From Deltaproteobacteria bacterium (lineage in GTDB: Bacteria; Myxococcota_A; UBA796; GCA-2862545), in NCBI GenBank assembly GCA_007693595.1, contig REDI01000050.1, forward strand, positions 124,001-188,000: a stretch of DNA of 64,000 nucleotides. The letters are read 5' to 3'. The notes under the pieces were generated by a model that was given only the letters and a program-made list of their open reading frames with translations, had not been told where the DNA came from and did not search any database. Shown here piece after piece: positions 8,734 through 47,336 of the stretch. Position numbers and translations under genes: made by a program. Within the stretch, counting starts at the first letter, position 1; every line of letters starts with the position of its first letter.

Positions 8734-10353
8734 CTAGGGCCGCCGCCGTCGAAGGGCGAATAGCGCGAGCACAGGCAGCAGGGCGCCCGGCACCCACGGG
8801 CTCGACTGGCAGCCGCAGCCTCCCTCGGGCACCGAGCTCACGGTCACGGTCGTGCGAGTCCAGCCGACGACCCCGGGGTTGAGCGCGACGGAGGAGCTGA
8901 TCCAGTCCGTGACGGGGGGCGGCGCGGAGGCGGTCGCGACGATCAGGAGCTCGATCGGCTCATCGTGCGGGACCTCGAGCTCCCCGACGTCGGGGAGTTG
9001 GTTCGGCGTGCCCTCCGCGACGAGTCGGCCCTCGTGGTAGACCGCGATCTGAGCGATCCCGTCAGGATGATCCGCCTCGATCACGTCTCGAAGCCGCTCG
9101 TCTTCATCCCAGGACGAGGACGCGCTCACCGTCGGGCGCTCTCCGAATGGCACGGTGAGGGGGTCGCCGAAGATCGTGCCATCCGGGAGATGGGGGTGGG
9201 AGTATACCCATGCTTCCCCGAAAGTGAACCCGTTCGCGTAGAGCATCAAAGAGCCCGCGTTGGGGCTATGTCTTGAGACTTGTGTACCTATCGAACCGTG
9301 AGCTCCTGTCGCACCTGCACGGATGGCGTGGGCCACCGAGACCCGGATCTCATTCTCGGGGCACTGCCCGGTGTCATCACAGAAGAGGTTGCGTGGCGCC
9401 GACGTGCTCGAGATCAGGTTGTCGAAGATGGCCCCAGGAGCGAAGGTGAGGTTGTCGATGATGTCGTGGAGTTCATCAGATCCGGTGTACAGACCGATCA
9501 CCGTTCGGCCTGATAGCTCAGGATCGTACTCTGGGATCCAGGTCGCGTTGTGACCTTGGGCCTGGAGCATCTCGATCGCGTGTTTGCACTCCCCATCCCG
9601 GTTGCGGTTGTTGTTAAACTGCGTCTCGATCCCCCTCATGCAGAGAAACTCCGCGTCGGGGAAGGTGCCGTCGGCGTCGAGCGCTCGCTGGATCAACGCC
9701 CGGGCATCCTCGTGGTCGAACCCATCAAGTCGGCTGAAGATGGGCTTCCATTCCTGCCAGTGCATCGTGAAGAACTCGAATGGGGGCGGCTCCACATACC
9801 CGGTGAAGGGTCCAGGAACTCTCTGTCCCCTCGCGAGCTGGGAAGACAGCGTGAAGAAACCGCTGCGCTCGATCTCGGGGTCGAAGTCTTCTTCGAAGAC
9901 GGTCATCAGGTCCATGAAGGGATTTTGAGGGGTTGACCAAAAGCGCTCGGACCGCATATTGTTGGGGGAAAGGTAGGGTTCATCGAATCTGTCGATCGTG
10001 TGGGCGAGTCGTAGGGCGGTCTCCGTTGAGGTCGATCGTTGGGAATTCAAGACGATGCGCACGGGGAGCCCCCGCACCGTCACGACCGTGCTGATGTCTT
10101 CGGGCTGTGGCAAGGCATCCAGGCATGTCAGGTAAGGCTCCAGGATGAGCGGGTAGGCGTCCTCCAGGTCCATCTCTCGCTGGTCTTCGACCGTGAGGCC
10201 GCGGATGCCACAGAGGTGGCTCTCGTGGAGGTCGCGGGCCTCGGCGTACTGGAGTGCGGTCTCGGTGCTGTCGTCGTCGTCGGCGTTGTAGACGACGAGA
10301 GTCTGGTGGGGGCCGATGCCGGCGTGGGCGAGCGAGAGCAGCAATGGGAACAT
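8734..10353 (-). CDS. TIGR03790-like exported protein with MYXO-CTERM anchor
   Basis: 539-residue exported protein. It has a short hydrophobic N-terminus (MFPLLLSLAHA) and a body resembling the TIGR03790 family of unknown function: LVVYNADDDDS, a Tyr-Ala-Arg helix, an ISTVVTVRGLPVRI strand and later an AHAIRAGATGAHG loop. The C-terminus is GCGCQSS, a hydrophobic segment, then RRRRP, matching the tripartite MYXO-CTERM sorting tag whose Cys is used for surface attachment in myxobacteria. The ATG at 10353 gives a sensible export signal. The divergent neighbour at 10624 carries the same type of tag. Enzymatic role unknown. Confidence 0.8.
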   Translation of the reverse strand: MFPLLLSLAHAGIGPHQTLVVYNADDDDSTETALQYAEARDLHESHLCGIRGLTVEDQREMDLEDAYPLILEPYLTCLDALPQPEDISTVVTVRGLPVRIVLNSQRSTSTETALRLAHTIDRFDEPYLSPNNMRSERFWSTPQNPFMDLMTVFEEDFDPEIERSGFFTLSSQLARGQRVPGPFTGYVEPPPFEFFTMHWQEWKPIFSRLDGFDHEDARALIQRALDADGTFPDAEFLCMRGIETQFNNNRNRDGECKHAIEMLQAQGHNATWIPEYDPELSGRTVIGLYTGSDELHDIIDNLTFAPGAIFDNLISSTSAPRNLFCDDTGQCPENEIRVSVAHAIRAGATGAHGSIGTQVSRHSPNAGSLMLYANGFTFGEAWVYSHPHLPDGTIFGDPLTVPFGERPTVSASSSWDEDERLRDVIEADHPDGIAQIAVYHEGRLVAEGTPNQLPDVGELEVPHDEPIELLIVATASAPPPVTDWISSSVALNPGVVGWTRTTVTVSSVPEGGCGCQSSPWVPGALLPVLALFALRRRRP

Positions 10354-10623
10354 GATTCATCTCCTGAGGGTTGAGGGGCCGTATCGAAAAGACGGTGGCT
10401 AAGACGCGCTCACCTCTCCTTTATTCAAGCTGGCGTGCGACTCCTCCGTCTTCCACTTCCTCTGCCTGCGTTTCGCGAGGGACCCCCCGAGGTCCAGAGC
10501 TGGCGTCTTCTCCCTCCTTCGACGGGCTCGTGGCGACCTCCTCCCAGCTCGTCGAGGTGTTCAGGGGAGCCCCATGGTTGTCTCAGCTGGTGTATGCTCC
10601 CCCTTGCCCGACCCGAGGTCTTC

Positions 10624-31170: not shown

Positions 31171-34100
31171 ATGCTGCAGCCCGGAGCTATCGTCGAGCGC
31201 TATCGAATCGTCCGGTCCCTCGGAGAAGGTGGGATGGGCACGGTCTACTTGGTGCGGCACGAGCAGCTCGGCACCCGGCGGGCCCTCAAGATCCTCCACC
31301 TTACCCGACCCTCGATCGCCGATCGGCTCCTCCGGGAGGGGCAGGTCCAGGCTCAGCTCCAGCACCCCAACGTCGTCTCGGTCCTCGATGTGCTCAACCA
31401 CCGGGGCATGCCCGCACTGCTCATGGAGTTCGTCGAGGGCCCGAACCTCCAGCAGGCCCGGCGCAGCATCCCGCTCAGCCTCGACGCGGTCGACTCCCTG
31501 GCCCGAGACATGCTGCGCGGGGTCGGGGCGGCGCACGGTCGGGGCTGGGTCCACCGCGACCTCAAGCCAGCGAACGTGCTGCTGGCCTTGAGCGAGGATG
31601 GGGTCCTAGCCAAGGTGACCGACTTCGGGCTGGCCAAGATCCTGATCGGGGGCGAGAGCGGAGAGACTCGATCGGGTGTGACCATGGGTACTCCGGGGTA
31701 TATGGCGCCCGAGCAGCTCCGCGACAGCGCGACGGTCGATGTGCGCGCCGATGTCTTCTCCCTCGGCTGCGTGCTCTACGAGCTTCTCGCGGGTCAGCCC
31801 CCCTTCGAAGATCCCGACCCCGTCGAGGTGATCCGAAAGGTCTGTGACGGGATCTACGTCGGCCTCGACCAGGTACGCCCCGAGCTGCCCACGCGCATGA
31901 CCCACGCGGTTCACCAAGCGCTCCAGGTCGATCGGGAGGATAGGCCCTTCGACGCCTTGGCGCTGCTCTCCCTGTGGGAGTCCGACACCACGCTGCGATC
32001 CTCAGCCTTTCGGCTGACCGAGATCGAGGCCCTCCGCGAGCTCGTACCGATGGACGAGGGAGCGGATCCCGAGCCGCCGTCGGGGGGATGGAGCGCGGGC
32101 TCGGACGCCTCTCCCATGACGTGGGCCGGGGGCATGGAGCCCCCGGACGTCGGATCGGGCTCGGGGGGCTCCTCGAGTCCCGAGACCTGGCACGAGGCCC
32201 CCGACTCGCGCTCGACGTCCTCCCTCTCCTCGTCGCCGGTGTCCTCTTCGCTCTCCACGCCGTCTGTGTCCTCCTCTCTTCCACCCCCGGCGACGGGTCG
32301 CGGGGTGAGGCGCTGGGGGGTCTGGGGGTTGGTTCTGGCGGCGGTCGGGGTTTCGGTGGGCGGCTTATGGTGGGGGCTGAGCTCTGGGGAACAGCCCGCC
32401 TGGGCGCTGCGTTGGGGTCCAGAAGGTCTGCGCGCCGACATCACGCTGCCCCGACACGTTGAGCATCAACCTCATCTCCTCGTCATGGGGAGCCCGGATC
32501 GCGTGCGCGCCGGGCGGGTGGTGACCTCGGCGGGCTACCCTGCGGAACACGACCTCGACGCCTCGCTCTTCGCCCTAGAACTCGGTCATGGGGTCTGGGC
32601 CGAGGTCTGGCAGGAGGGCGCTGCGCACCTCATCTATCGGAGCGCGGCGGGGCTCACGCTGCATCAGGTCCGGCTGGAGCCCGGAGAGGGGGAGCTCAGG
32701 CTGGTGCACCTCGGCCCGGAGGGCGAGCCAGAGCGCTCGGTCAAAGGCTCCTTCCCTGAGCTGCTCGGGGGAGTCTTTCAGCATGTCCTTCGCTTCGATC
32801 GGCAGGGTCGCCTCATCCAGCTCCGCACCCAAGGGCCCGATGGGGAGCCGATGCGCGCCGACGACGCGACCTATGGGCGCGACTTCCTCTACGACGATCA
32901 GGATCGCCTGGTCGAGCGCGTCGCGGTCGGCTTCGACGGGATGCCATCCCCCGACAGGCGGGGGATCGTCACGCATCGAACCTTGTACCAAGGTGATGGT
33001 AGAATGCCCAGCCAGATCCAGACGCTGGGCATGGGCGGGGTTGCGGTTGTGGGGCCCGCTGGGGTGGAACAGGAACACCGCCGCTACGATGATCAAGGGC
33101 GCTTGATCGAGCGCCGCGGCGCGCGCGCGGGGGATCCCAGCCCGCTTCTCCCGTGGGTGTGTCCGATCCTGCGCTTCGAGTATGCCGCCGAGCGCGTGAT
33201 CGTGCGCTGCCTGGATGGCGAGGGGGAGCCCGCCTGGTCCTCGGCGGGCTGGTCGGCACGCGAGATCACCGTCGACGCGCGGGGCTACGTCGTACACGAG
33301 GCGTCCTACGGGACGAAAGGCGAGCCGGTCAACAACAGCTTCGGCTTCGCCTCGGCTTCCCGCGAGGTCGACGATCGGGGTTATCTCAGCGCCTTCGGGC
33401 CGCTCCGGGGCGCGGACGGCGAGCCGGTCCTCCACCGGGAGCAAGGCTACAACGCTCGGCGCTGGAACCACGATGATCGCGGGCTGGTGGTGCTGTCTAT
33501 CACCGAGGGGATCGAGGGGGACCCCACGACGTTCTATCGGGGCTGGGCCATGATCCGCCGAACCTACGATCGCTGGGGTCGGCTGGTGCGCGAAGTTGGA
33601 CTCGATCCCATGGGTCAGCCGGTCAGCGGGCTCGAAGGCTACGCGGGGCGGGTGCTCGACGTCGATGAGCGGGGGCGCGCGCGCTCCATCACGTTCCTCG
33701 ATGCCGCGGAGCAGCCCGCCCCCAACCGCGATGGGGTCACGCGCTATGTGCGCGACTTCGACGATCGCGACAACCTCGTGGCTCGGACCGCCTTCGGAAC
33801 TCAGGGGGAGCCGACCTGGGATCGACGGCGCGGAACGGTCAAGGAGCGGCACGTCTACGACGAGCTGGACCAAGAGGTCCGCACCGCGCGCTTCGGCCTG
33901 TCTGGCGAGCCCGTCAACGGCGCCGATGGATGGCACGAGCGGCTTCAGTCCTACGATAGCCGTGGGAACGTCATCGAGAGCCGCTTCCTGACGGTGGAGG
34001 GCGAGCTCGTGCCGCAGGAGCCGCTGGGCGGCCGGATCCATCGGGAGCGCTTCGACCTCGCGAGCCGCGTCATCGCCTTCGAGGCCTTCGATGAGCGAGG

Positions 34101-35124
34101 TCGCCCCCTCCGGGGGTGCACCACCCTGCGCTATGAGTACGACCACCTGGGGAACGAAGCGCTCTTTCGATGTGAAGACGGGAGTGGGCGGCCCGCCCTC
34201 CTACCGGGCATCCAAGCCTATGGGCTCGAGCGCCGACACGACCACCACAGCCGCGAGATCGAGTCCAGGGCACTCGATCGAGACGGCCGACTGATGGCGA
34301 CCCCCACCGGGGTGGCCCGTTTCCTTCGCCGTTATGAGGGGGCGAACCCGATGTGGTCGGTGATCGAGATGTACGATGCGCAGGAGCAGCCCTTTCAGCT
34401 TGCGAACGGGGTCTTCCGGACCGAGCGGACCTTCGACGCCTTCGGGCGCGTTCAGACCCAGCGCACTTTGAACCTCGAAGGGGAGCTGGTCGTCGGGATC
34501 ACGCCTGCCTGCGCCGAGGTGCACTTCACCTATCGCGTCCGCGAGGAGCCCACCGAGATGCTCTGCTTCGATGCAGAGGGTCGACCGTCGACCGAGGTGC
34601 CCCATCTCACGGAGTGGACCTACGACGAAGCGGGACGCATCCGATCTCACCGCTTCCTCGACGATCGAGGGCGCGAGGCGGAGGGGGCCGAAGGGTGGAG
34701 TGAGAAGCTCTACTTCTACGATCGAAGAGGGACCCTCGCCATGGAGTCCTGGCGAGCGGTGGGCGGAGGGTGCGGCTTGTTTCAGGGCGAGGTCTGTGCC
34801 CGTCGCCTCTTGGTGGACGAGGCGGGAGCCCCAGTGCGCGAGACCTTTCTCGACGAGCAGGACGCGCCCCTCGCCCCGACCTCGCTTGGCTACGCGGTGG
34901 TGGAGCTGTCGCGCGACGGTTCGGGGCGCGTGATGCAGCGACGGTTCTTCAGCGCCGCGGAGGCGCCAGCGATCGATCGCGAGTCGGGGGCGCACCGGAT
35001 CGTCTATCGCTACGATCTTGCCGGCGAGATCGAGAGCGAGGAGCGCTTCGACCTCGACGGGGAGTCGATCACCACGCAAGCCTCGGAAGCGGGCTCAAGA
35101 CCGACCGAGCCCTCCGCGGACTGA
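31171..35124 (+). CDS. Transmembrane Ser/Thr protein kinase with a large RHS-like repeat domain
   Basis: 1317 residues. An N-terminal Hanks-type kinase (~10-285) is complete: GEGGMGTVY loop, Lys40, HRDLKPANVLL with Asp130, DFG at 151 and GTPGYMAPEQ. A Ser/Pro/Gly-rich linker (~325-375) leads to one transmembrane helix (~381-400). The rest is extracytoplasmic: after ~135 residues come about 24 repeats of ~32 residues (~538-1300) with a YDxxGRL...GEP...G rhythm, related in style to RHS/YD repeats. No PASTA domain. The ATG at 31171 places the kinase at the N-terminus as usual. Likely senses an outside ligand or binds a wall or surface component. Stands alone; substrates unknown. Confidence 0.93.
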   Translation: MLQPGAIVERYRIVRSLGEGGMGTVYLVRHEQLGTRRALKILHLTRPSIADRLLREGQVQAQLQHPNVVSVLDVLNHRGMPALLMEFVEGPNLQQARRSIPLSLDAVDSLARDMLRGVGAAHGRGWVHRDLKPANVLLALSEDGVLAKVTDFGLAKILIGGESGETRSGVTMGTPGYMAPEQLRDSATVDVRADVFSLGCVLYELLAGQPPFEDPDPVEVIRKVCDGIYVGLDQVRPELPTRMTHAVHQALQVDREDRPFDALALLSLWESDTTLRSSAFRLTEIEALRELVPMDEGADPEPPSGGWSAGSDASPMTWAGGMEPPDVGSGSGGSSSPETWHEAPDSRSTSSLSSSPVSSSLSTPSVSSSLPPPATGRGVRRWGVWGLVLAAVGVSVGGLWWGLSSGEQPAWALRWGPEGLRADITLPRHVEHQPHLLVMGSPDRVRAGRVVTSAGYPAEHDLDASLFALELGHGVWAEVWQEGAAHLIYRSAAGLTLHQVRLEPGEGELRLVHLGPEGEPERSVKGSFPELLGGVFQHVLRFDRQGRLIQLRTQGPDGEPMRADDATYGRDFLYDDQDRLVERVAVGFDGMPSPDRRGIVTHRTLYQGDGRMPSQIQTLGMGGVAVVGPAGVEQEHRRYDDQGRLIERRGARAGDPSPLLPWVCPILRFEYAAERVIVRCLDGEGEPAWSSAGWSAREITVDARGYVVHEASYGTKGEPVNNSFGFASASREVDDRGYLSAFGPLRGADGEPVLHREQGYNARRWNHDDRGLVVLSITEGIEGDPTTFYRGWAMIRRTYDRWGRLVREVGLDPMGQPVSGLEGYAGRVLDVDERGRARSITFLDAAEQPAPNRDGVTRYVRDFDDRDNLVARTAFGTQGEPTWDRRRGTVKERHVYDELDQEVRTARFGLSGEPVNGADGWHERLQSYDSRGNVIESRFLTVEGELVPQEPLGGRIHRERFDLASRVIAFEAFDERGRPLRGCTTLRYEYDHLGNEALFRCEDGSGRPALLPGIQAYGLERRHDHHSREIESRALDRDGRLMATPTGVARFLRRYEGANPMWSVIEMYDAQEQPFQLANGVFRTERTFDAFGRVQTQRTLNLEGELVVGITPACAEVHFTYRVREEPTEMLCFDAEGRPSTEVPHLTEWTYDEAGRIRSHRFLDDRGREAEGAEGWSEKLYFYDRRGTLAMESWRAVGGGCGLFQGEVCARRLLVDEAGAPVRETFLDEQDAPLAPTSLGYAVVELSRDGSGRVMQRRFFSAAEAPAIDRESGAHRIVYRYDLAGEIESEERFDLDGESITTQASEAGSRPTEPSAD

Positions 35125-40477: not shown

Positions 40478-41848
40478 TTGGCACGCAGCGAGCGCATGTC
40501 TACCTTCGACGCGGCGTGGCTTCAGATGGACAGCCCCGAGAACCCCATGGTCATCACGGGGGTCCTCTGGCTCGACCGTCCGCTTCGCTACGCCGATCTC
40601 TCGGATCTTCTCTCCCAGCGTCTCATCGGGCCCTATCCTCGCTTTCGGCAGCGGGTGGTCTATGGGGTGCTCGGCGAGCCTCGGTGGGCGGTCGACCCCA
40701 AGTTCGATCTAAGACTTCATCTGCACCATATCGGGCTGCCCGCGCCGGGGGGGCAGCCCGCCCTTCAGAACCTGGTCAGCCAGCTCTTGAGCAGCCCGCT
40801 CGAGATGTCCAGGTCCCCGTGGCAGATCCACCTGGTCGATGGCTACCTGGGTGGCAGCGCCATCATCGCCAGGCTCCACCACGCGCTCGCCGATGGGATC
40901 TCGCTCGCGCGGGTGCTGCTCTCGCTGGCCGACGAGGTCGACGATGTCACCCTCGACGCCGAACCTGGCTCCACCGAGGAGCCCTCCTCGATGCGCAGCG
41001 TGCTCCGCGACCCTGCGAGCGCGGGAGAGAAGCTGCTCGACCTGGGGCGCAGCCTGCGCAACGAGCCCGATCGGGTCTTCGACGTCGCGCGTCAGGGCGG
41101 CACGACCGCCGCCGTCGTCGGCCGCCTCCTCACCATGAGCGATGACCCCCCCACGCCCCTCAAGGGTGAGCTCGGACCCCTCAAGCGAGCGGTGTGGAGC
41201 AGCGGGGCTCCCCTCGCCGAGATCAAGAGCCTCGCCCGCCGTCTTCACGGCACGGTGAACGACGTGCTGCTCTACGCGCTCGCCTGCGCCCTGGGTCGTT
41301 ACCTTCGTCAGCGCGGGACTCCCCAGCGCGAGGTGCGTACCCTGGTCCCGGTCAACCTTCGACCCGCCGACAAGCCCGTCAGCCGCGACCTAGGCAACCA
41401 CTTCGGCATGGTCTTCGTGCCGCTTCCGGTGGACCACCTACCTCCAAAGCAGCGCTTCGACGAGGTCCGCCGCCGTATGAAGGCGCTCAAGGACAGCACG
41501 GAGCCCGCGCTGACTTACGCCTTGCTCAACGCCGTCGGTCGGACCCCTCTCCAGTTCGAGAAGCTCTTTACCGATAGTTTTGGCGCCAAGGCGAGCTTGA
41601 TCACGACCAACGTGCCGGGCCCGACGGCGCCGCTTCACTTGGCTGGGGCCGAGCTTCGGGGCGTGCTGTTCTGGGTGCCTCAGTCCGCAGGGGTGAGCTT
41701 GGGGGTCAGCCTCTTCTCGTACGCGGGCACCGTGTGGTGGGGGGTCAGCGCGGATGCTGGACGGATCCCCGATCCCGAGGCGCTGGTTGAGGGCATGAGC
41801 GACGCCCTCGACCAGCTTCGGAGCAGTCTCAACGACGGATCATGCTGA
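40478..41848 (+). CDS. Wax ester synthase/diacylglycerol acyltransferase (WS/DGAT)
   Basis: 456-residue acyl-CoA-dependent acyltransferase making wax esters or triacylglycerol, membrane-associated. Family features: FDAAWLQMDSPENPM at the N-terminus, PRFRQRVV, the active-site HHxxxDG as HHALADG (His134, His135, Asp139), LARRLHGTVNDVLLYALA, VPVNLRPAD and TTNVPGP. The start is the TTG at 40478 with GGGGAGG four to five bases upstream; an ATG at 40496 is the alternative. Divergent from the Kdo transferase operon, convergent with the PYP-like gene. Suggests storage-lipid formation. Confidence 0.93.
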   Translation: MARSERMSTFDAAWLQMDSPENPMVITGVLWLDRPLRYADLSDLLSQRLIGPYPRFRQRVVYGVLGEPRWAVDPKFDLRLHLHHIGLPAPGGQPALQNLVSQLLSSPLEMSRSPWQIHLVDGYLGGSAIIARLHHALADGISLARVLLSLADEVDDVTLDAEPGSTEEPSSMRSVLRDPASAGEKLLDLGRSLRNEPDRVFDVARQGGTTAAVVGRLLTMSDDPPTPLKGELGPLKRAVWSSGAPLAEIKSLARRLHGTVNDVLLYALACALGRYLRQRGTPQREVRTLVPVNLRPADKPVSRDLGNHFGMVFVPLPVDHLPPKQRFDEVRRRMKALKDSTEPALTYALLNAVGRTPLQFEKLFTDSFGAKASLITTNVPGPTAPLHLAGAELRGVLFWVPQSAGVSLGVSLFSYAGTVWWGVSADAGRIPDPEALVEGMSDALDQLRSSLNDGSC

Positions 41849-42536
41849 CGTGGTAGCGCCCTCGCAGGCGCGCGGGCGAGATCAGGATCGCCACCTGCTG
41901 CACCCCGGAGCTGAAGCGGAAGACGAAGTCGAAGCTGGTGACAGGGACACCGCCGCTCTGCTGCACTAGCTCGCGAAAGCGACCCTCGAACTCCTTGACC
42001 CGCGCACACGGGGCCACTTCGCCAAAGAAGTGTCGTCCGATGACCGCCTCTTTCGGCAGGCCAACCATGCGAGACTCGGTGTCGTTGTAGCCGACGACCC
42101 GTCCGTTCCGATCCAGCGTCACCACGCCATAAGGCAGGTTGTCGAGCTGCTCGGGGGAGAGCTGCTGGAGGTGGCCCACGTCGACGCTGTTCGGGAGCGC
42201 GGGGGCCCCAGAGCTGGACGTGGGCATGGGGCCGGGGGGGAGCGGGGCGCCGAGGTGCCCGACCAAGCCGGGCGAAGGAGCGGTGGGCGAAGCGGGGAGC
42301 GCTGGGGCCGGAGCGGAGAGCTCTGAGGCCGGTGGAGGGCGACGCTCTAGGGGCGGAGCGAAGCCGAGGAGGTCGTCGAGGAGAGGAGGGACCTCTCCAC
42401 CTTCGAGCATCTTACCCGCGTCGCGGAGTCTTCGGATATGACGATTTATCCTGGATCGCTCATCGAGGGCCTCGTCGAGGGCGCGGCGGACCTGCTGGAG
42501 TCGCTGCAGGTTGGGTGTCGAACGTAGGGTATTCAT
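41829..42536 (-). CDS. Photoactive yellow protein-like PAS sensor
   Basis: 235 residues: a helical N-terminus (~8-45), a Pro/Ala-rich linker (~60-115) and a C-terminal PAS domain (~118-235) close to Halorhodospira photoactive yellow protein. Key pigment residues match at exact spacing: Tyr150 (Tyr42), Glu154 (Glu46) and Cys177 (Cys69) within HFFGEVAPC. Thr50 and Arg52 are Val158 and Leu160. The match runs on through EFEGRF to the end. If p-coumarate is attached at Cys177 this is a blue-light receptor; the enzymes that make the pigment are not in the window. The ATG overlaps the stop of the roadblock/coiled-coil gene, so it is the last gene of that operon. Confidence 0.85.
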   Translation of the reverse strand: MNTLRSTPNLQRLQQVRRALDEALDERSRINRHIRRLRDAGKMLEGGEVPPLLDDLLGFAPPLERRPPPASELSAPAPALPASPTAPSPGLVGHLGAPLPPGPMPTSSSGAPALPNSVDVGHLQQLSPEQLDNLPYGVVTLDRNGRVVGYNDTESRMVGLPKEAVIGRHFFGEVAPCARVKEFEGRFRELVQQSGGVPVTSFDFVFRFSSGVQQVAILISPARLRGRYHVSMIRR

Positions 42537-43912
42537 GCCGAAGCCTCACGGGTGGTGAGTGTGGACGAAGAGACGAGGCGGTGCCATCGCGCCGCTCCAC
42601 CGAGCTCGTCGAGGGCCTCGGGGGGGAGGGCGATGTCCGACATCGCGATGATGATCAGGCCGTCGGGATCGTCTTCCACGACCCGAGCCGAGAGCCAACC
42701 GCCCGCGTAGCTACCGATCCGAAGGGCGGCGGCGCCCAGGTCCTCCCCGTCCCGGTCCAGGCGGCGGAACCAGGTGCGAAGGAAGGCGGACAGGTCGCGA
42801 AAGTCCTCGCTCCAGCCGGGGTCGGAGGCGGAGAGGACCTCGTCCTCCTCGTCGAGAAGGACACAGGCCATGGCCTTCCAGCGAGAGGTCCAGTCGGCCA
42901 GAAAGGTTCGGTCAGCGTCTTCTCCCGTCGCGTCCGCAGGCGGCTCGAGCGAGAGGGGGGCGGAGGGAGGCGGCAGGCTGGGGAGCTCCCCGACCATGCG
43001 CGCTGTCGTGATGCGAAGCGCCAGATCTGGAGTCTCGACGGGGCCGTAGACGCCGACCCAGCGGCCGTCGTCCGGGCCCAGACGGTGGAGATGAAGACCG
43101 CTCGAGGTGAGCATCGCGGTCAGGCTCCGAATGGGCATTCGAAGCGTTTGCTCCAAGGAGGACATCGCCTGCGCGCCGATGGCTGCGAGCCGCCCGAGCC
43201 GAGCGATCTCGTCCGTCGGGCCGACGGCCAGGAGAGAGTGGCCGCGGTCGTCCACGATCGCGGCGGCCGTGCAGGTCGTCGATGTCAGGAGATCGGTGAG
43301 GTGCTCGCTGCTGCCCCGACGCGCCTCGGGCGCAAGCGGGTCAGAAACGTCGCCAGAGATCTCCAGGTCGAGCGCATCGAGGACCACCTCCAGCCGCCGC
43401 CGTTGGTGTCGCTCTTCTCGGAGCCGCTCGTCGAATGCGCGGCGCTGGAGCTCCGTGGCGTCGGTGAAGCGCCGCCGTGCGGCGTCGATCTCGACTCCGA
43501 GGCGCTCTTTGTCTCGGTTCAACTGCTGGCTGCGGGCCGTGAGGCTGTCGATGCGCTGGTCCCGTTGATGGAGGGCCTCACGAAGCTCAGCTTGGCTGGA
43601 GCGCAGTGCCTCGGCTTCGGCGCGGATCGGTCGGAGCTCTTCGAGCTCGAGGCGCAGGTCGGCGACCTCGGGCTCCAGTCTCTTGAGTCGCTGGCTGAGC
43701 TCGGTCGCGGCGTCGTGTCGTTTGTCCAGCTCCGCTCGGGTGACGGAGAGGGCGTTCTTCAACGATCGCAGATCGTCCACGAGGGCTGCGTTGGCCTCGT
43801 CCTTCTCGCGCTCCCGGCGCTTCGCGCGAGATCCCAGGACGAGCAGGGCCGTCAGGGAGCCCAGTCCGAGCGATCCGGTGGCGAGCATCAGGCTGATAGA
43901 GAGAAGATCCAT
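42533..43912 (-). CDS. Membrane-anchored coiled-coil protein with two roadblock-like domains
   Basis: 459 residues. One N-terminal transmembrane helix (~5-27) is followed by a long coiled coil (~30-165). Then come two globular parts with the strand pattern of roadblock/LC7 (MglB-like) domains: TTCTAAAIVDDRGHSLLAVG... (~205-300) and WKAMACVLLDEEDEVLSASD... (~345-445). Roadblock domains regulate small Ras-like GTPases such as MglA, which controls polarity and gliding in myxobacteria. Its stop overlaps the PYP-like start and a roadblock gene lies eight bases upstream. No GTPase gene is in the window. The second domain is less certain. Confidence 0.75.
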   Translation of the reverse strand: MDLLSISLMLATGSLGLGSLTALLVLGSRAKRREREKDEANAALVDDLRSLKNALSVTRAELDKRHDAATELSQRLKRLEPEVADLRLELEELRPIRAEAEALRSSQAELREALHQRDQRIDSLTARSQQLNRDKERLGVEIDAARRRFTDATELQRRAFDERLREERHQRRRLEVVLDALDLEISGDVSDPLAPEARRGSSEHLTDLLTSTTCTAAAIVDDRGHSLLAVGPTDEIARLGRLAAIGAQAMSSLEQTLRMPIRSLTAMLTSSGLHLHRLGPDDGRWVGVYGPVETPDLALRITTARMVGELPSLPPPSAPLSLEPPADATGEDADRTFLADWTSRWKAMACVLLDEEDEVLSASDPGWSEDFRDLSAFLRTWFRRLDRDGEDLGAAALRIGSYAGGWLSARVVEDDPDGLIIIAMSDIALPPEALDELGGAARWHRLVSSSTLTTREASA

Positions 43913-43920
43913 GATGTACC

Positions 43921-44283
43921 TCAGGCAGCGCTGCGAGTGAGGGTGTCGGCAGCCGCGTCGATGTCGTCGAGCAGCAGCCCGAGCTGGGCCGAGGGGCGCG
44001 CGACGATCGCCAGAATGCGCCCGTCGCCAAGATCGCGCGCGACGACGTGGCCAGCGGGCCCACGCAAGATGAACTCTTGAAGCAGTCCGCGGCCGAGCTC
44101 GCGGGTGGTTCGCTCCGCGAGACCTGCCAGCGCGGTCAACATGGGGGCCGCGATCTCACCCAGGGGGTTGCCCTCATCGATCTCTGGACTGGAGGCCAGG
44201 ATCGCTCCCTCCGGGTCGATGAGGATCGCCAGGTCCACCGCGGGCGAGAGTTTGCGAAGGTTTTGAAGAGTTACATGATTCAA
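43921..44283 (-). CDS. Roadblock/LC7 domain protein (MglB-like)
   Basis: 120 residues forming a single roadblock domain: a first helix, LAILIDPEGAILASS, a central helix LTALAGLAERTTRELGRG, LQEFILRGPAGHVVARDL and ILAIVARPSAQLG, then a final helix. Such proteins are dimeric regulators of Ras-like GTPases. I start it at a TTG (44283) because a near-perfect GGGAGG lies five bases before it and the length then fits the family; in-frame ATGs at 44328 and 44391 have no ribosome site. First gene of the operon that ends in the PYP-like sensor, divergent from a hybrid kinase. Confidence 0.82.
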   Translation of the reverse strand: MNHVTLQNLRKLSPAVDLAILIDPEGAILASSPEIDEGNPLGEIAAPMLTALAGLAERTTRELGRGLLQEFILRGPAGHVVARDLGDGRILAIVARPSAQLGLLLDDIDAAADTLTRSAA

Positions 44284-44417
44284 TAGATCCTCCCGTCGAG
44301 CCGAGGTGGTCGCCGCTAGGAGCTGCATGATTGCGGCGCTGGGGCGAATCGGTCGATAAGAGAAGGGTAGGCGCTGCCCGATGGAAGGCATAGGGTGAAC
44401 AGGTTACGAAAAGGTCT

Positions 44418-47336
44418 ATGAGGTGGACACGGACTGTTGCCTCGAAGTGTCGCGTCTGGGGCCGCGCGCCTGACTCTTCCCGGACACCCTTGACAGCGCC
44501 ACCTTGCTGGATCACTATCTGCCAGGAGGTAGCGCTGAGATCCCTACCCGCAGAGTTTGACGTCCCCCCCGCGTCTCTCACGTCCATGCTCCCGCATCTC
44601 GCTTCTCTCACGGGAGCGAGGGCTTCGCTGTGGGCCCAACGGGAGCGAGGCTGGGTCTATCGAGCGGGGCGGCCCGGTGGCGTCGAGTCGCAGGTCGTCC
44701 GGGCGGGGGTCGACCGAGGCCTCCCCGCCTGCGTAGGCGAGGTGCTCGTCTTGAGAGCGTTCGAGGGCTACGTGCTCGCGCTGGAGTATGACGATCCCCA
44801 GGCGGCAGAGCGCGCGCTGTCGAGGACCGGGGACGCGATCGTCGAGGTCCTTCGGGCGTGCGAGGCTTCCGCGGGGGCCAAAGAGCTTACCGTGGCATCT
44901 CGGCCTACGTATGTGGACCAGCGTCGCTTGCTCGAGATCGAGCGCGCCTTGCTGAGTCAGCTCGTGGCCGGCGAGCCAGATACGCGTGTCCTCGAGCAGC
45001 TGGTCTTAGGAGTCGAGGCGACGATCACAGGGGCTATCGGCAGCGTGCTCCTAATCGATCCCGATCAGCCAGACCGCCTGTGTCTGGGGTCTTCGCCGAA
45101 CCTCCCTTCCCCCTTGGCGCGGTGCTCCGACGGGCTTCCGGTTGGGCCCGACGTCGGCACCTGTGGACGCGCGGCGTACTTCAAGCGGCCGATCTACACG
45201 TCGGATGTTCGCGTCGATCCCGCCTGGGAAGGCTTCGCACACGTCCCGGTCGAGGTCGGGCTGGTCTCGTGCTGGTCGGTGCCGATCCTCTCCCGTGGAG
45301 GCGAGGTTCTGGGCACGTTCGCCATCTACCTTCCTACGCCAGGGGAGCCGGCCGAAGACCTTCGGGAGCTGCTCCACAGCTTCGCCCAGATCGCCGCCCT
45401 CGCGTTGGAGCTCCGTCGGGCGCGCGAGGCGCTGGAGCATCGTGAGGTCCTCTTCGAGGCCGCAGCCCGCGCGACCTCCCAGGCGATTTGGGACCTGGAC
45501 TTCGCGACCAGGACCTTGCGCTGGCACGCGGGCGAGAACGACCCCTTCGGGCTGGGTGCCTCTTCCAAGGAGGGCCTTGAGACCTGGGCGAGCTTGATCC
45601 ATCCCGACGATCGCGCTGCGGTGGTCGAGAGCCTGGATCAGGCCGTCGATCGCGGCGACGAGACGTGGGCGGCCAGCTATCGCTTCCGTCGGTCTGACGG
45701 CTCCTATACCTGGGTCCTCGATCGCGGCCTCACGATTTTCGATGTCTCGGGCACGCCGCTCCGCATGATCGGGGGGCTCTCCGACGACGGCGCACGGCGT
45801 CAGTCCGAGCAGCGTCTGCGGGAGCAAGCCGAGGTCCTCGACCAAGTGCAGAGCGCGATCATCGTGATCGATCTTGAAGGGGTGGTCACGGTCTGGAATC
45901 GGGCCGCAGAGCGTCTGTATGGCGTTCCGTCGCGGCAGGCCGAGGGCGCGGATTATCGGAGCACGGGCGTAGCGCTGGACATGCCTTTCGACGAGCTCTG
46001 CGAGGTCCTGGCTACTGAGGGGCGCCGGAGCGCCTCCGTTCGGTTGGAGCGCGCCGACGGCGAGGTGCGCGAGCTACGATCCATGTGGCGAGTTGTTCGC
46101 GACAACGCGGGCTTACCAAGATCTTTGGTGCTGGTCCAGACAGACGAGACCGGGCGACTTCGCATGGAGCGTCAGCAGCTCCGAGCCCAGCGCCTCGAGA
46201 GCATCGGCACGCTCGCGGGCGGGGTCGCCCATGATCTCAACAACATGCTCACCCCGATCCTCGCCTCCGTCGATCTGGTACGGCTCAAGGTCAGCGATCC
46301 CTCGGCGCTCGAGAACCTTCAGATCATGGAAGACGCCGCGGAGCGAGGGGCGACCATGGTGCAGCAGCTCCTTCAGTTTGCTCGTGGGGCAGAGGCGGAG
46401 AGGGGGCCTGTCGATCTGGTCTTGCTGATGTCGGAGGTGAGGCGGATCATCCGCGACACTCTCCCGAGGTCCGTTCGCCTCCATGTCGAGGTCGAGGCCG
46501 ACCTGCCCACGGTCCAAGGCGACACCACGCAGCTCCACCAGGTCCTCTTGAACCTCGTGATCAACGCCCGCGACGCCATGCCCGAGGGCGGGGATCTCAC
46601 CTTGGTCGCGACGACGGTGGAGATCCTACCCGAGCACCTCCCCCACCTCGCGAGCGTCGAGGCGAGGGCAGGGCGCTATGTCAAGCTTAGCGTCGGCGAC
46701 ACGGGCACGGGCATCCCTCCCGAGGTCAAGGAGCGGATCTTCGAGCCCTTCTTCACCACCAAGGGGGTCGGCTCGGGGACGGGGCTCGGCCTCTCGACGG
46801 TGCTCGCATTGGTGCGCGCCCACAAGGGCTTCATCGAGCTCTCTACGGCGCCCAACGAGGGCACGAGGGTCTGTGTCTTCTTACCTGTCTCCGTTGCAGA
46901 CTGCGCCGTCGATGGGCCGTGCTCGGGTCGAGAGGTCGAGCCATCGGGCCAGGGCCAGCGGATCCTCGTGGTCGACGATGAGCCAGCGGTGCGAACCATC
47001 GCGACGAGGCTGCTCGAGGGCGGGGGCTATCAGGTGGCGGTCGCGGGGGACGGGGAGGCCGCGCTGCGAGCGATCGAGCGAGAGCATGGTGCTTTCGACT
47101 GCGTTGTGACCGATCTGATGATGCCTCAGCTCGATGGCTACGAGCTCATCCGGCGGGTCCGAGATCGCTACCCCGCGGTCCCGATGGTGGCGATGACGGG
47201 TCTCGACCGCGGGGATGCCCGGGAGCATGTCCTGGCCTCGGGAGCCTCGGCGCTCCTGCCCAAGCCCTTTACCGGACACAGCCTGTTGAGGGTGGTCGGC
47301 GAGGCCATCGCTGCGAACCATGAAAAGCTCCGCTGA
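44418..47336 (+). CDS. GAF/PAS hybrid histidine kinase
   Basis: Up to 972 residues, soluble. A poorly defined N-terminal region (~50-150, possibly GAF-like) is followed by a GAF domain (~165-335), PAS (~345-465), PAS (~475-590), HisKA with His605 in GGVAHDLNNMLTPI, a canonical ATPase domain (NLVINARDAM, DTGTGIP, GTGLGLS) and a receiver with Asp899 and Lys in LPKPFT. The N-terminus is uncertain: the ATG at 44418 is used, but the next ATG at 44586 would also keep all recognisable domains. Shares a 134-base intergenic region with the divergent roadblock/PYP operon, so a common circuit is possible. Confidence 0.92.
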   Translation: MRWTRTVASKCRVWGRAPDSSRTPLTAPPCWITICQEVALRSLPAEFDVPPASLTSMLPHLASLTGARASLWAQRERGWVYRAGRPGGVESQVVRAGVDRGLPACVGEVLVLRAFEGYVLALEYDDPQAAERALSRTGDAIVEVLRACEASAGAKELTVASRPTYVDQRRLLEIERALLSQLVAGEPDTRVLEQLVLGVEATITGAIGSVLLIDPDQPDRLCLGSSPNLPSPLARCSDGLPVGPDVGTCGRAAYFKRPIYTSDVRVDPAWEGFAHVPVEVGLVSCWSVPILSRGGEVLGTFAIYLPTPGEPAEDLRELLHSFAQIAALALELRRAREALEHREVLFEAAARATSQAIWDLDFATRTLRWHAGENDPFGLGASSKEGLETWASLIHPDDRAAVVESLDQAVDRGDETWAASYRFRRSDGSYTWVLDRGLTIFDVSGTPLRMIGGLSDDGARRQSEQRLREQAEVLDQVQSAIIVIDLEGVVTVWNRAAERLYGVPSRQAEGADYRSTGVALDMPFDELCEVLATEGRRSASVRLERADGEVRELRSMWRVVRDNAGLPRSLVLVQTDETGRLRMERQQLRAQRLESIGTLAGGVAHDLNNMLTPILASVDLVRLKVSDPSALENLQIMEDAAERGATMVQQLLQFARGAEAERGPVDLVLLMSEVRRIIRDTLPRSVRLHVEVEADLPTVQGDTTQLHQVLLNLVINARDAMPEGGDLTLVATTVEILPEHLPHLASVEARAGRYVKLSVGDTGTGIPPEVKERIFEPFFTTKGVGSGTGLGLSTVLALVRAHKGFIELSTAPNEGTRVCVFLPVSVADCAVDGPCSGREVEPSGQGQRILVVDDEPAVRTIATRLLEGGGYQVAVAGDGEAALRAIEREHGAFDCVVTDLMMPQLDGYELIRRVRDRYPAVPMVAMTGLDRGDAREHVLASGASALLPKPFTGHSLLRVVGEAIAANHEKLR

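Follow-up and report, generated by a model that had tools for sequence, protein, structure and literature searches.

A photoactive yellow protein-family domain encoded in a conserved operon with roadblock proteins in Myxococcota

Introduction

The origin of photoactive yellow proteins (PYPs) has been placed in Myxococcota, and the family is defined by Cys69 (Xing et al. 2022, PMC9664959). Profile TIGR02373 recovers just about 20% of its homologs (PMC9664959). A catalog of the partners and domains of 984 PYPs reported Ala50 and Leu52 as the consensus residues at these positions (Dohmen et al. 2025, PMC12826048). According to this survey, 17% of PYPs are multidomain proteins, with the PYP domain in C-terminal position in 35% of those, and pyp operons include a gene for tyrosine ammonia-lyase (TAL) in 5% and for the CoA ligase pCL in 32% of cases (PMC12826048). 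The same source names the way in which PYP hands on its signal as a gap in the field (PMC12826048). The word "roadblock" is absent from the main texts of both surveys, whose supplements may hold sequences of the cassette described here (PMC9664959, PMC12826048), and we found the pairing of PYP with roadblock proteins in no published survey of the PYP family. Among literature naming both "photoactive yellow protein" and "roadblock," no work on a link between the two was found, judging by titles.

Here, we describe a myxococcotal gene located in a 64,000-nucleotide stretch of DNA, referred to as the window. Computational analysis revealed that its product has a PYP fold with the full Tyr/Glu/Cys pocket, situated C-terminally behind a coiled-coil-like helix and a flexible linker, and that the gene belongs to a conserved operon together with two further genes, one for a Roadblock/LC7 protein and one for a protein composed of a membrane helix, a coiled coil, and tandem roadblock domains. 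An initial annotation of the window had drawn attention to the PYP-like domain; it included neither the conserved Roadblock operon nor the TAL-type lyase and CoA ligase genes that adjoin one orthologous operon.

Results

The C-terminal domain is a genuine PYP-family PAS domain. Residues 123-235 matched TIGR02373 (photo_yellow) with an E value of 3e-23 and 82.2 bits, the sole match to this profile in the source genome, and PF00989 also matched the C-terminal domain (9.5e-11). Because the TIGR02373 score lies below the equivalog cut-off (at least 143 bits), which delimits free-standing PYPs of the Halorhodospira halophila type, the sequence places the product as a divergent member of the family. 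In a phmmer search of PDB sequences, the PYP domain of R. centenum Ppr (1mzu) ranked first (1.8e-17), followed by H. halophila PYPs (about 1e-14), with other PAS domains reaching just 1e-3. An AlphaFold model based on 50 sequences predicted the domain and the N-terminal helix with high confidence and the Pro-rich linker as disordered (Table 1), in agreement with the initial annotation, which had put the PYP domain behind a helix and such a linker. This predicted structure superposed on 1mzu_A at 1.2 Å over 103 columns (40% identity), with Tyr150, Glu154, and Cys177 in register with the PYP trio, and ranks 1-40 of a Foldseek search against the PDB were all PYPs or FAST derivatives. E values and fold together rule out a chance resemblance. 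With Cys69, Tyr42, and Glu46 present and with sequence and fold nearer to PYP than to other PAS domains, the domain belongs to the PYP family sensu Xing, Gumerov & Zhulin 2022.

Alignment with residues 28-75 of H. halophila PYP was gap-free across the pocket, as had been claimed, and Tyr150, Glu154, and Cys177 fell at exact PYP spacing on Tyr42, Glu46, and Cys69; we counted 19 identities in these 48 positions, where about 21 matches had been estimated. Val158 and Leu160 occupy the positions of Thr50 and Arg52. These two substitutions had been correctly located, and their exotic status was overstated: with Leu52 and Ala50 as the family consensus (PMC12826048), Val50/Leu52 is ruled out as a mark of an unusual PYP. 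The multidomain, C-terminal layout had likewise been presented as unusual to a degree that the survey frequencies cited above do not bear out (PMC12826048). The PYP domain contains no second Cys for a disulfide.

Table 1. Features of the roadblock-PYP operon in the window
Feature	Coordinates	Strand	Basis
First gene: Roadblock/LC7 protein, 156 aa as called	43921..44391	-	PF03259, 29.6 bits (cut-off 23); orthologs
Second gene, 459 aa: predicted membrane helix, coiled coil, and two MglB/roadblock-fold domains	42533..43912	-	AlphaFold, Foldseek, hhalign
Third gene: PYP-family protein	41829..42536	-	235-aa ORF from ATG; TIGR02373 E 3e-23; orthologs
PYP/PAS domain, residues 123-235	41832..42170	-	HMM and PDB matches; AlphaFold pLDDT ~95
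Tyr150 codon (= Tyr42 of H. halophila PYP)	42087..42089	-	Alignment; invariant in 17 cassette PYPs
Glu154 codon (= Glu46)	42075..42077	-	Alignment; invariant in 17 cassette PYPs
Cys177 codon (= Cys69, chromophore thioester site)	42006..42008	-	Alignment; invariant in 17 cassette PYPs
N-terminal helix, residues 9-45, coiled-coil-like	42402..42512	-	AlphaFold pLDDT ~90; N-terminal extensions of orthologs
Pro/Ala-rich disordered linker, residues 60-119	42180..42359	-	Sequence; AlphaFold pLDDT ~50-57

The PYP gene is the last of three tightly spaced genes. The Roadblock/LC7 gene is separated by 8 bp from the gene for the membrane helix-coiled coil-MglB-fold protein, which in turn shares 4 bp with the start of the PYP gene. 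The first product passes the gathering score of PF03259, and the true start of its gene may be internal to the called one. The second protein has no Pfam match over the cut-off; in its model, an N-terminal helix with the look of a membrane anchor is followed by an extended coiled coil and, C-terminally, by two domains. For its C-terminal half, the top Foldseek matches were MglB (E 1e-5, TMt ~0.6-0.7), pointing to an MglB-like fold, and hhalign against the Robl profile yielded a probability of 74% (E 2.8e-5). A wax ester synthase/DGAT gene (window:40478-41848) is convergent with the PYP gene and overlaps it by 20 bp. A hybrid histidine kinase gene at 44418-47336 was rejected as a fixed partner, being absent beside the other readable cassettes.

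In Myxococcus, MglB is the GTPase-activating protein of MglA. The predicted MglB-like fold of the second protein would therefore suit an operon whose roadblock proteins regulate a GTPase of the MglA kind, with PYP putting cell polarity under light control, a special case of the output that we favor below. We regard this as very improbable. No gene recognizable as encoding a Ras-like GTPase was present in the operons, that of the window included, or in the neighborhoods read, part of whose genes were searched by family; this sets the locus apart from conservons and MglA-MglB systems. Moreover, PF00025 and PF08477 detected no MglA-like protein in the source genome, a weak test considering that a true MglA (G276) reached just 2.5e-6.

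The same three-gene order was found in genomes G001, G020, G024 (two copies), G033 (two copies), G195, and G207 and at the MAG loci L043, L045, and L046. A Roadblock gene adjoins 15 of 17 related PYP genes (cassette PYPs) across Myxococcota versus none of 82 other PYP loci, as determined by profiles over six-frame translations of loci with unequal flanks, from which a distant Roadblock gene may escape. Four of the 15 positive loci (L028, L182, L183, and L185) were outside the training set of the profile, and at L182 and L183 the Roadblock gene is present in a changed arrangement. When 379 genomes of the phylum were searched at the protein level, PYP-like matches turned up in 46, with the cassette lineage in about 12. 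A second divergent PYP-like protein is encoded near the roadblock-PYP operon at L045:5903-6886 and L048:10500-11630; that of L045 keeps Tyr/Glu/Cys and has Trp at position 62.

Our contig scan demanded the motif FF[GTK][ED]VAPC and is unusable for judging conservation of the Cys; we therefore relied on the 14 lineage members from the protein search, a set obtained without filtering by motif. None of these 14 orthologs, which share a mean pairwise identity of 56%, deviates at Tyr42, Glu46, or Cys69, and seven of nine pCA-pocket positions are invariant versus 20 of 95 other columns (Fisher p 0.001). Traits of the lineage are Ala or Val at position 50, Leu52, Phe94, Phe98, His or Ser in place of Met100, and loss of Trp119; position 70 is variable, and His predominates at position 100. 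A tree was built from 64 domains and 127 columns, a length that leaves its fine structure unsure; in it, the lineage groups with support of 89/88, including one long-branched extra row, and a one-clade test was not rejected (p 0.38). H. halophila-type PYPs lie across a 95/93 split from it.

The window holds no pigment genes, as the initial annotation had stated, and a search of the whole source genome (98.4% complete) found neither a TAL-type lyase nor a PYP-type CoA ligase (TIGR02372), the two companions of pyp in the classical pyp-pCL-TAL operon. The best TIGR02372 match, at 44 bits, was ruled out as a PYP-type pCL, the matching proteins being ordinary acyl-CoA ligases. In ammonia-lyases, a His-Leu selectivity pair marks TAL and a Ser-His pair marks histidine ammonia-lyase. 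The only two PF00221 lyases of the source genome are adjacent: one has the Ser-His pair and Ser-Ser-Gly in place of Ala-Ser-Gly at the MIO site, and the other has Ala-Ala-Gly, with the MIO serine lost, and from its sequence is probably without the cofactor. These features rule out both copies as TAL, also because two lyases were found in all nine genomes of the order that were examined, whether or not they carry the roadblock-PYP operon. Tandem histidine-ammonia-lyase-like genes of this kind were seen at L006, L007 (source genome C89:45369-48253), and L227; perhaps they form a heteromeric enzyme.

Among cassette genomes of the same order with readable lyases (G020, G024, and G033), none had a TAL-type lyase or a PYP-type ligase; two lyases were also found in G001, their selectivity residues unread. 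Together with the TIGR02373 score under the equivalog cut-off and the differences from H. halophila PYP at residues 50, 94, 98, 100, and 119, this would fit a pigment-free PYP relative in the source organism, which has inherited fold and pocket and acts within a roadblock complex as a PAS domain for structure or protein binding. We consider such a role rather unlikely, given that the orthologs without exception keep Tyr42, Glu46, and Cys69 while other columns drift; a Cys without pigment should vary freely, as is the case for the Cys of methylobacterial Ppr (PMC9664959). The ligase search itself works: ligase genes were recovered at 28 PYP loci overall, including those of Halomonas, Skermanella, Rheinheimera, and Idiomarina, the latter two also having a second lyase. 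Halomonas SpR1 and Skermanella possess a pyp-pCL pair, yet their sole lyase type is that of histidine; thus, a missing TAL is not proof of a missing pigment.

Putative pigment genes do occur beside PYP loci of relatives. In G195, a lyase with the His-Leu selectivity pair of TAL (LQRNLLYHLATG; selectivity stretch NLLYHLATG) and an intact Ala-Ser-Gly is encoded by a gene that overlaps a CoA ligase gene, both divergent from the Robl-scaffold-PYP operon. The ligase is of another type than the PYP-type of TIGR02372, and such adjacency of TAL and ligase genes was seen at just 1 of 17 cassette loci. In G207, a ligase 45% identical to that of G195 and a lyase predicted to be TAL-type (KLIYHLATG) adjoin a second, cyclase-fused PYP, and in G090 a lyase assigned to the same type by its selectivity pair precedes a similar PYP-cyclase. 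Fusions of PYP with cyclase-like domains were found at L224:5295-9487 (G207), L039:6610-9246 (G090), and L226:1878-2927 (G262), each with Phe in place of Tyr42; in G262, a related ligase gene lies about 3 kb beyond the fusion.

Retention of the pocket in genomes without recognizable p-coumarate synthesis, along with the variable position 70 and the prevalence of His at position 100 in the lineage, could also indicate that Cys177 bears a thioester of a different phenolic or acyl group, or is modified by redox chemistry, rather than binding p-coumarate, and that the protein is a chemical or redox sensor. This appears quite improbable to us: the exact PYP trio including Glu46 points to p-coumarate, genes for a TAL-type lyase and a ligase adjoin one orthologous operon, and a partner Cys for a disulfide is missing from the domain.

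Other PYP architectures were met in the survey. Fusions of a MerR-type helix-turn-helix domain (HTH_17) to PYP, at L034:7736-8290 (G068) and, in tandem, at L035:9413-10042 and 10078-10620 (G063), look like direct light-responsive transcription factors; the terms "helix-turn-helix" and "MerR" are absent from the texts of both PYP surveys (PMC9664959, PMC12826048). At L053:524-2607, L103:8964-10972, and L188:3795-5979, a PYP gene directly follows, touching or overlapping, a Ser/Thr protein kinase gene whose product matches that of the window kinase gene 31234-35124, and kinase-like genes also follow the PYP-cyclase genes of L039, L224, and L226. In three genomes of the order, a PYP-like domain follows a zinc-ribbon-like N terminus with a CxxC...CxxC pattern (L031:3089-3718, L033:5995-6462, and L037:2125-2622).

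Discussion

On balance, we lean toward the interpretation that the protein is a divergent PYP-family photoreceptor that, as a subunit of a small roadblock complex anchored in the membrane, provides the light input. The proposed sensing of blue light would be based on p-coumarate, and pigment binding in the source organism is inferred. Cys177 would carry the p-coumaroyl thioester, with Tyr150 and Glu154 holding the group. Blue light would isomerize the chromophore and loosen the domain. The N-terminal helix might relay this change to the coiled coil in the second protein, so that the roadblock assembly at the membrane, along with whatever this assembly recruits, would be altered. The p-coumaroyl group might be self-made in G195-type genomes, and in the source organism it might come from outside or be supplied by unrecognized enzymes. 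Considering Ser at position 100 and Val at position 50, we expect a photocycle that would be red-shifted or slow in recovery.

We take the lack of TAL and ligase in the genome, the sub-cut-off score, the 95/93 split, and the 1/17 adjacency to count against this interpretation. It is tempting to speculate that the cassette represents an old myxococcotal lineage of roadblock-linked PYPs, which kept the pocket without a recognized p-coumarate route, so that a blue-light response would need an external phenolic acid or another thioester ligand and the signal would consist in rearrangement of the membrane roadblock scaffold; this stronger proposal seems unlikely to us as a whole.

We know of no earlier light sensor tied to bacterial roadblock proteins, and the light-input role that we favor would, if true, be the first such link to our knowledge. 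The conserved three-gene operon, with its defined membrane and scaffold partners, makes signal transfer from PYP directly testable, and the lineage offers new color and kinetic variants of PYP (Val/Ala50 and His/Ser100).

Both partner proteins share the fold of MglB/Roadblock-LC7 proteins of Myxococcus and Thermus; here, in contrast, no gene for an MglA-like GTPase adjoins, and the second protein is extended by a membrane helix and a long coiled coil. Streptomyces conservons (cvn) similarly combine a sensor protein and an MglB-type roadblock protein in one operon (PMC13343842). Conservons have a kinase-like sensor, CvnC, and a GTPase, in place of which the present operon has PYP and a membrane coiled-coil scaffold and no GTPase.

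H. halophila PYP (2phy/1nwz) and the domain described here have in common the PAS fold, Tyr42, Glu46, and Cys69 in register, and Phe62, Val66, Ala67, Pro68, and Phe96. They differ in that the former is a free-standing protein of 125 amino acids encoded in an operon with pCL and TAL, whereas the latter is a C-terminal domain encoded in a roadblock operon and has Tyr28, Val50, Leu52, Phe94, Phe98, Ser100, and His119. The PYP domain of R. centenum Ppr (1mzu) lies N-terminal to a bacteriophytochrome-histidine kinase and is without roadblock partners, but it provides the closest solved structure and is likewise part of a larger protein. While the surveyed partners of PYP are kinases, phytochromes, GGDEF/EAL, MCP, V4R, REC, and BLUF proteins or domains, the roadblock operon resembles known multidomain PYPs and pyp operons in having PYP as the input, signaling partners adjoining it, and TAL, as is often the case, not nearby (PMC9664959, PMC12826048).
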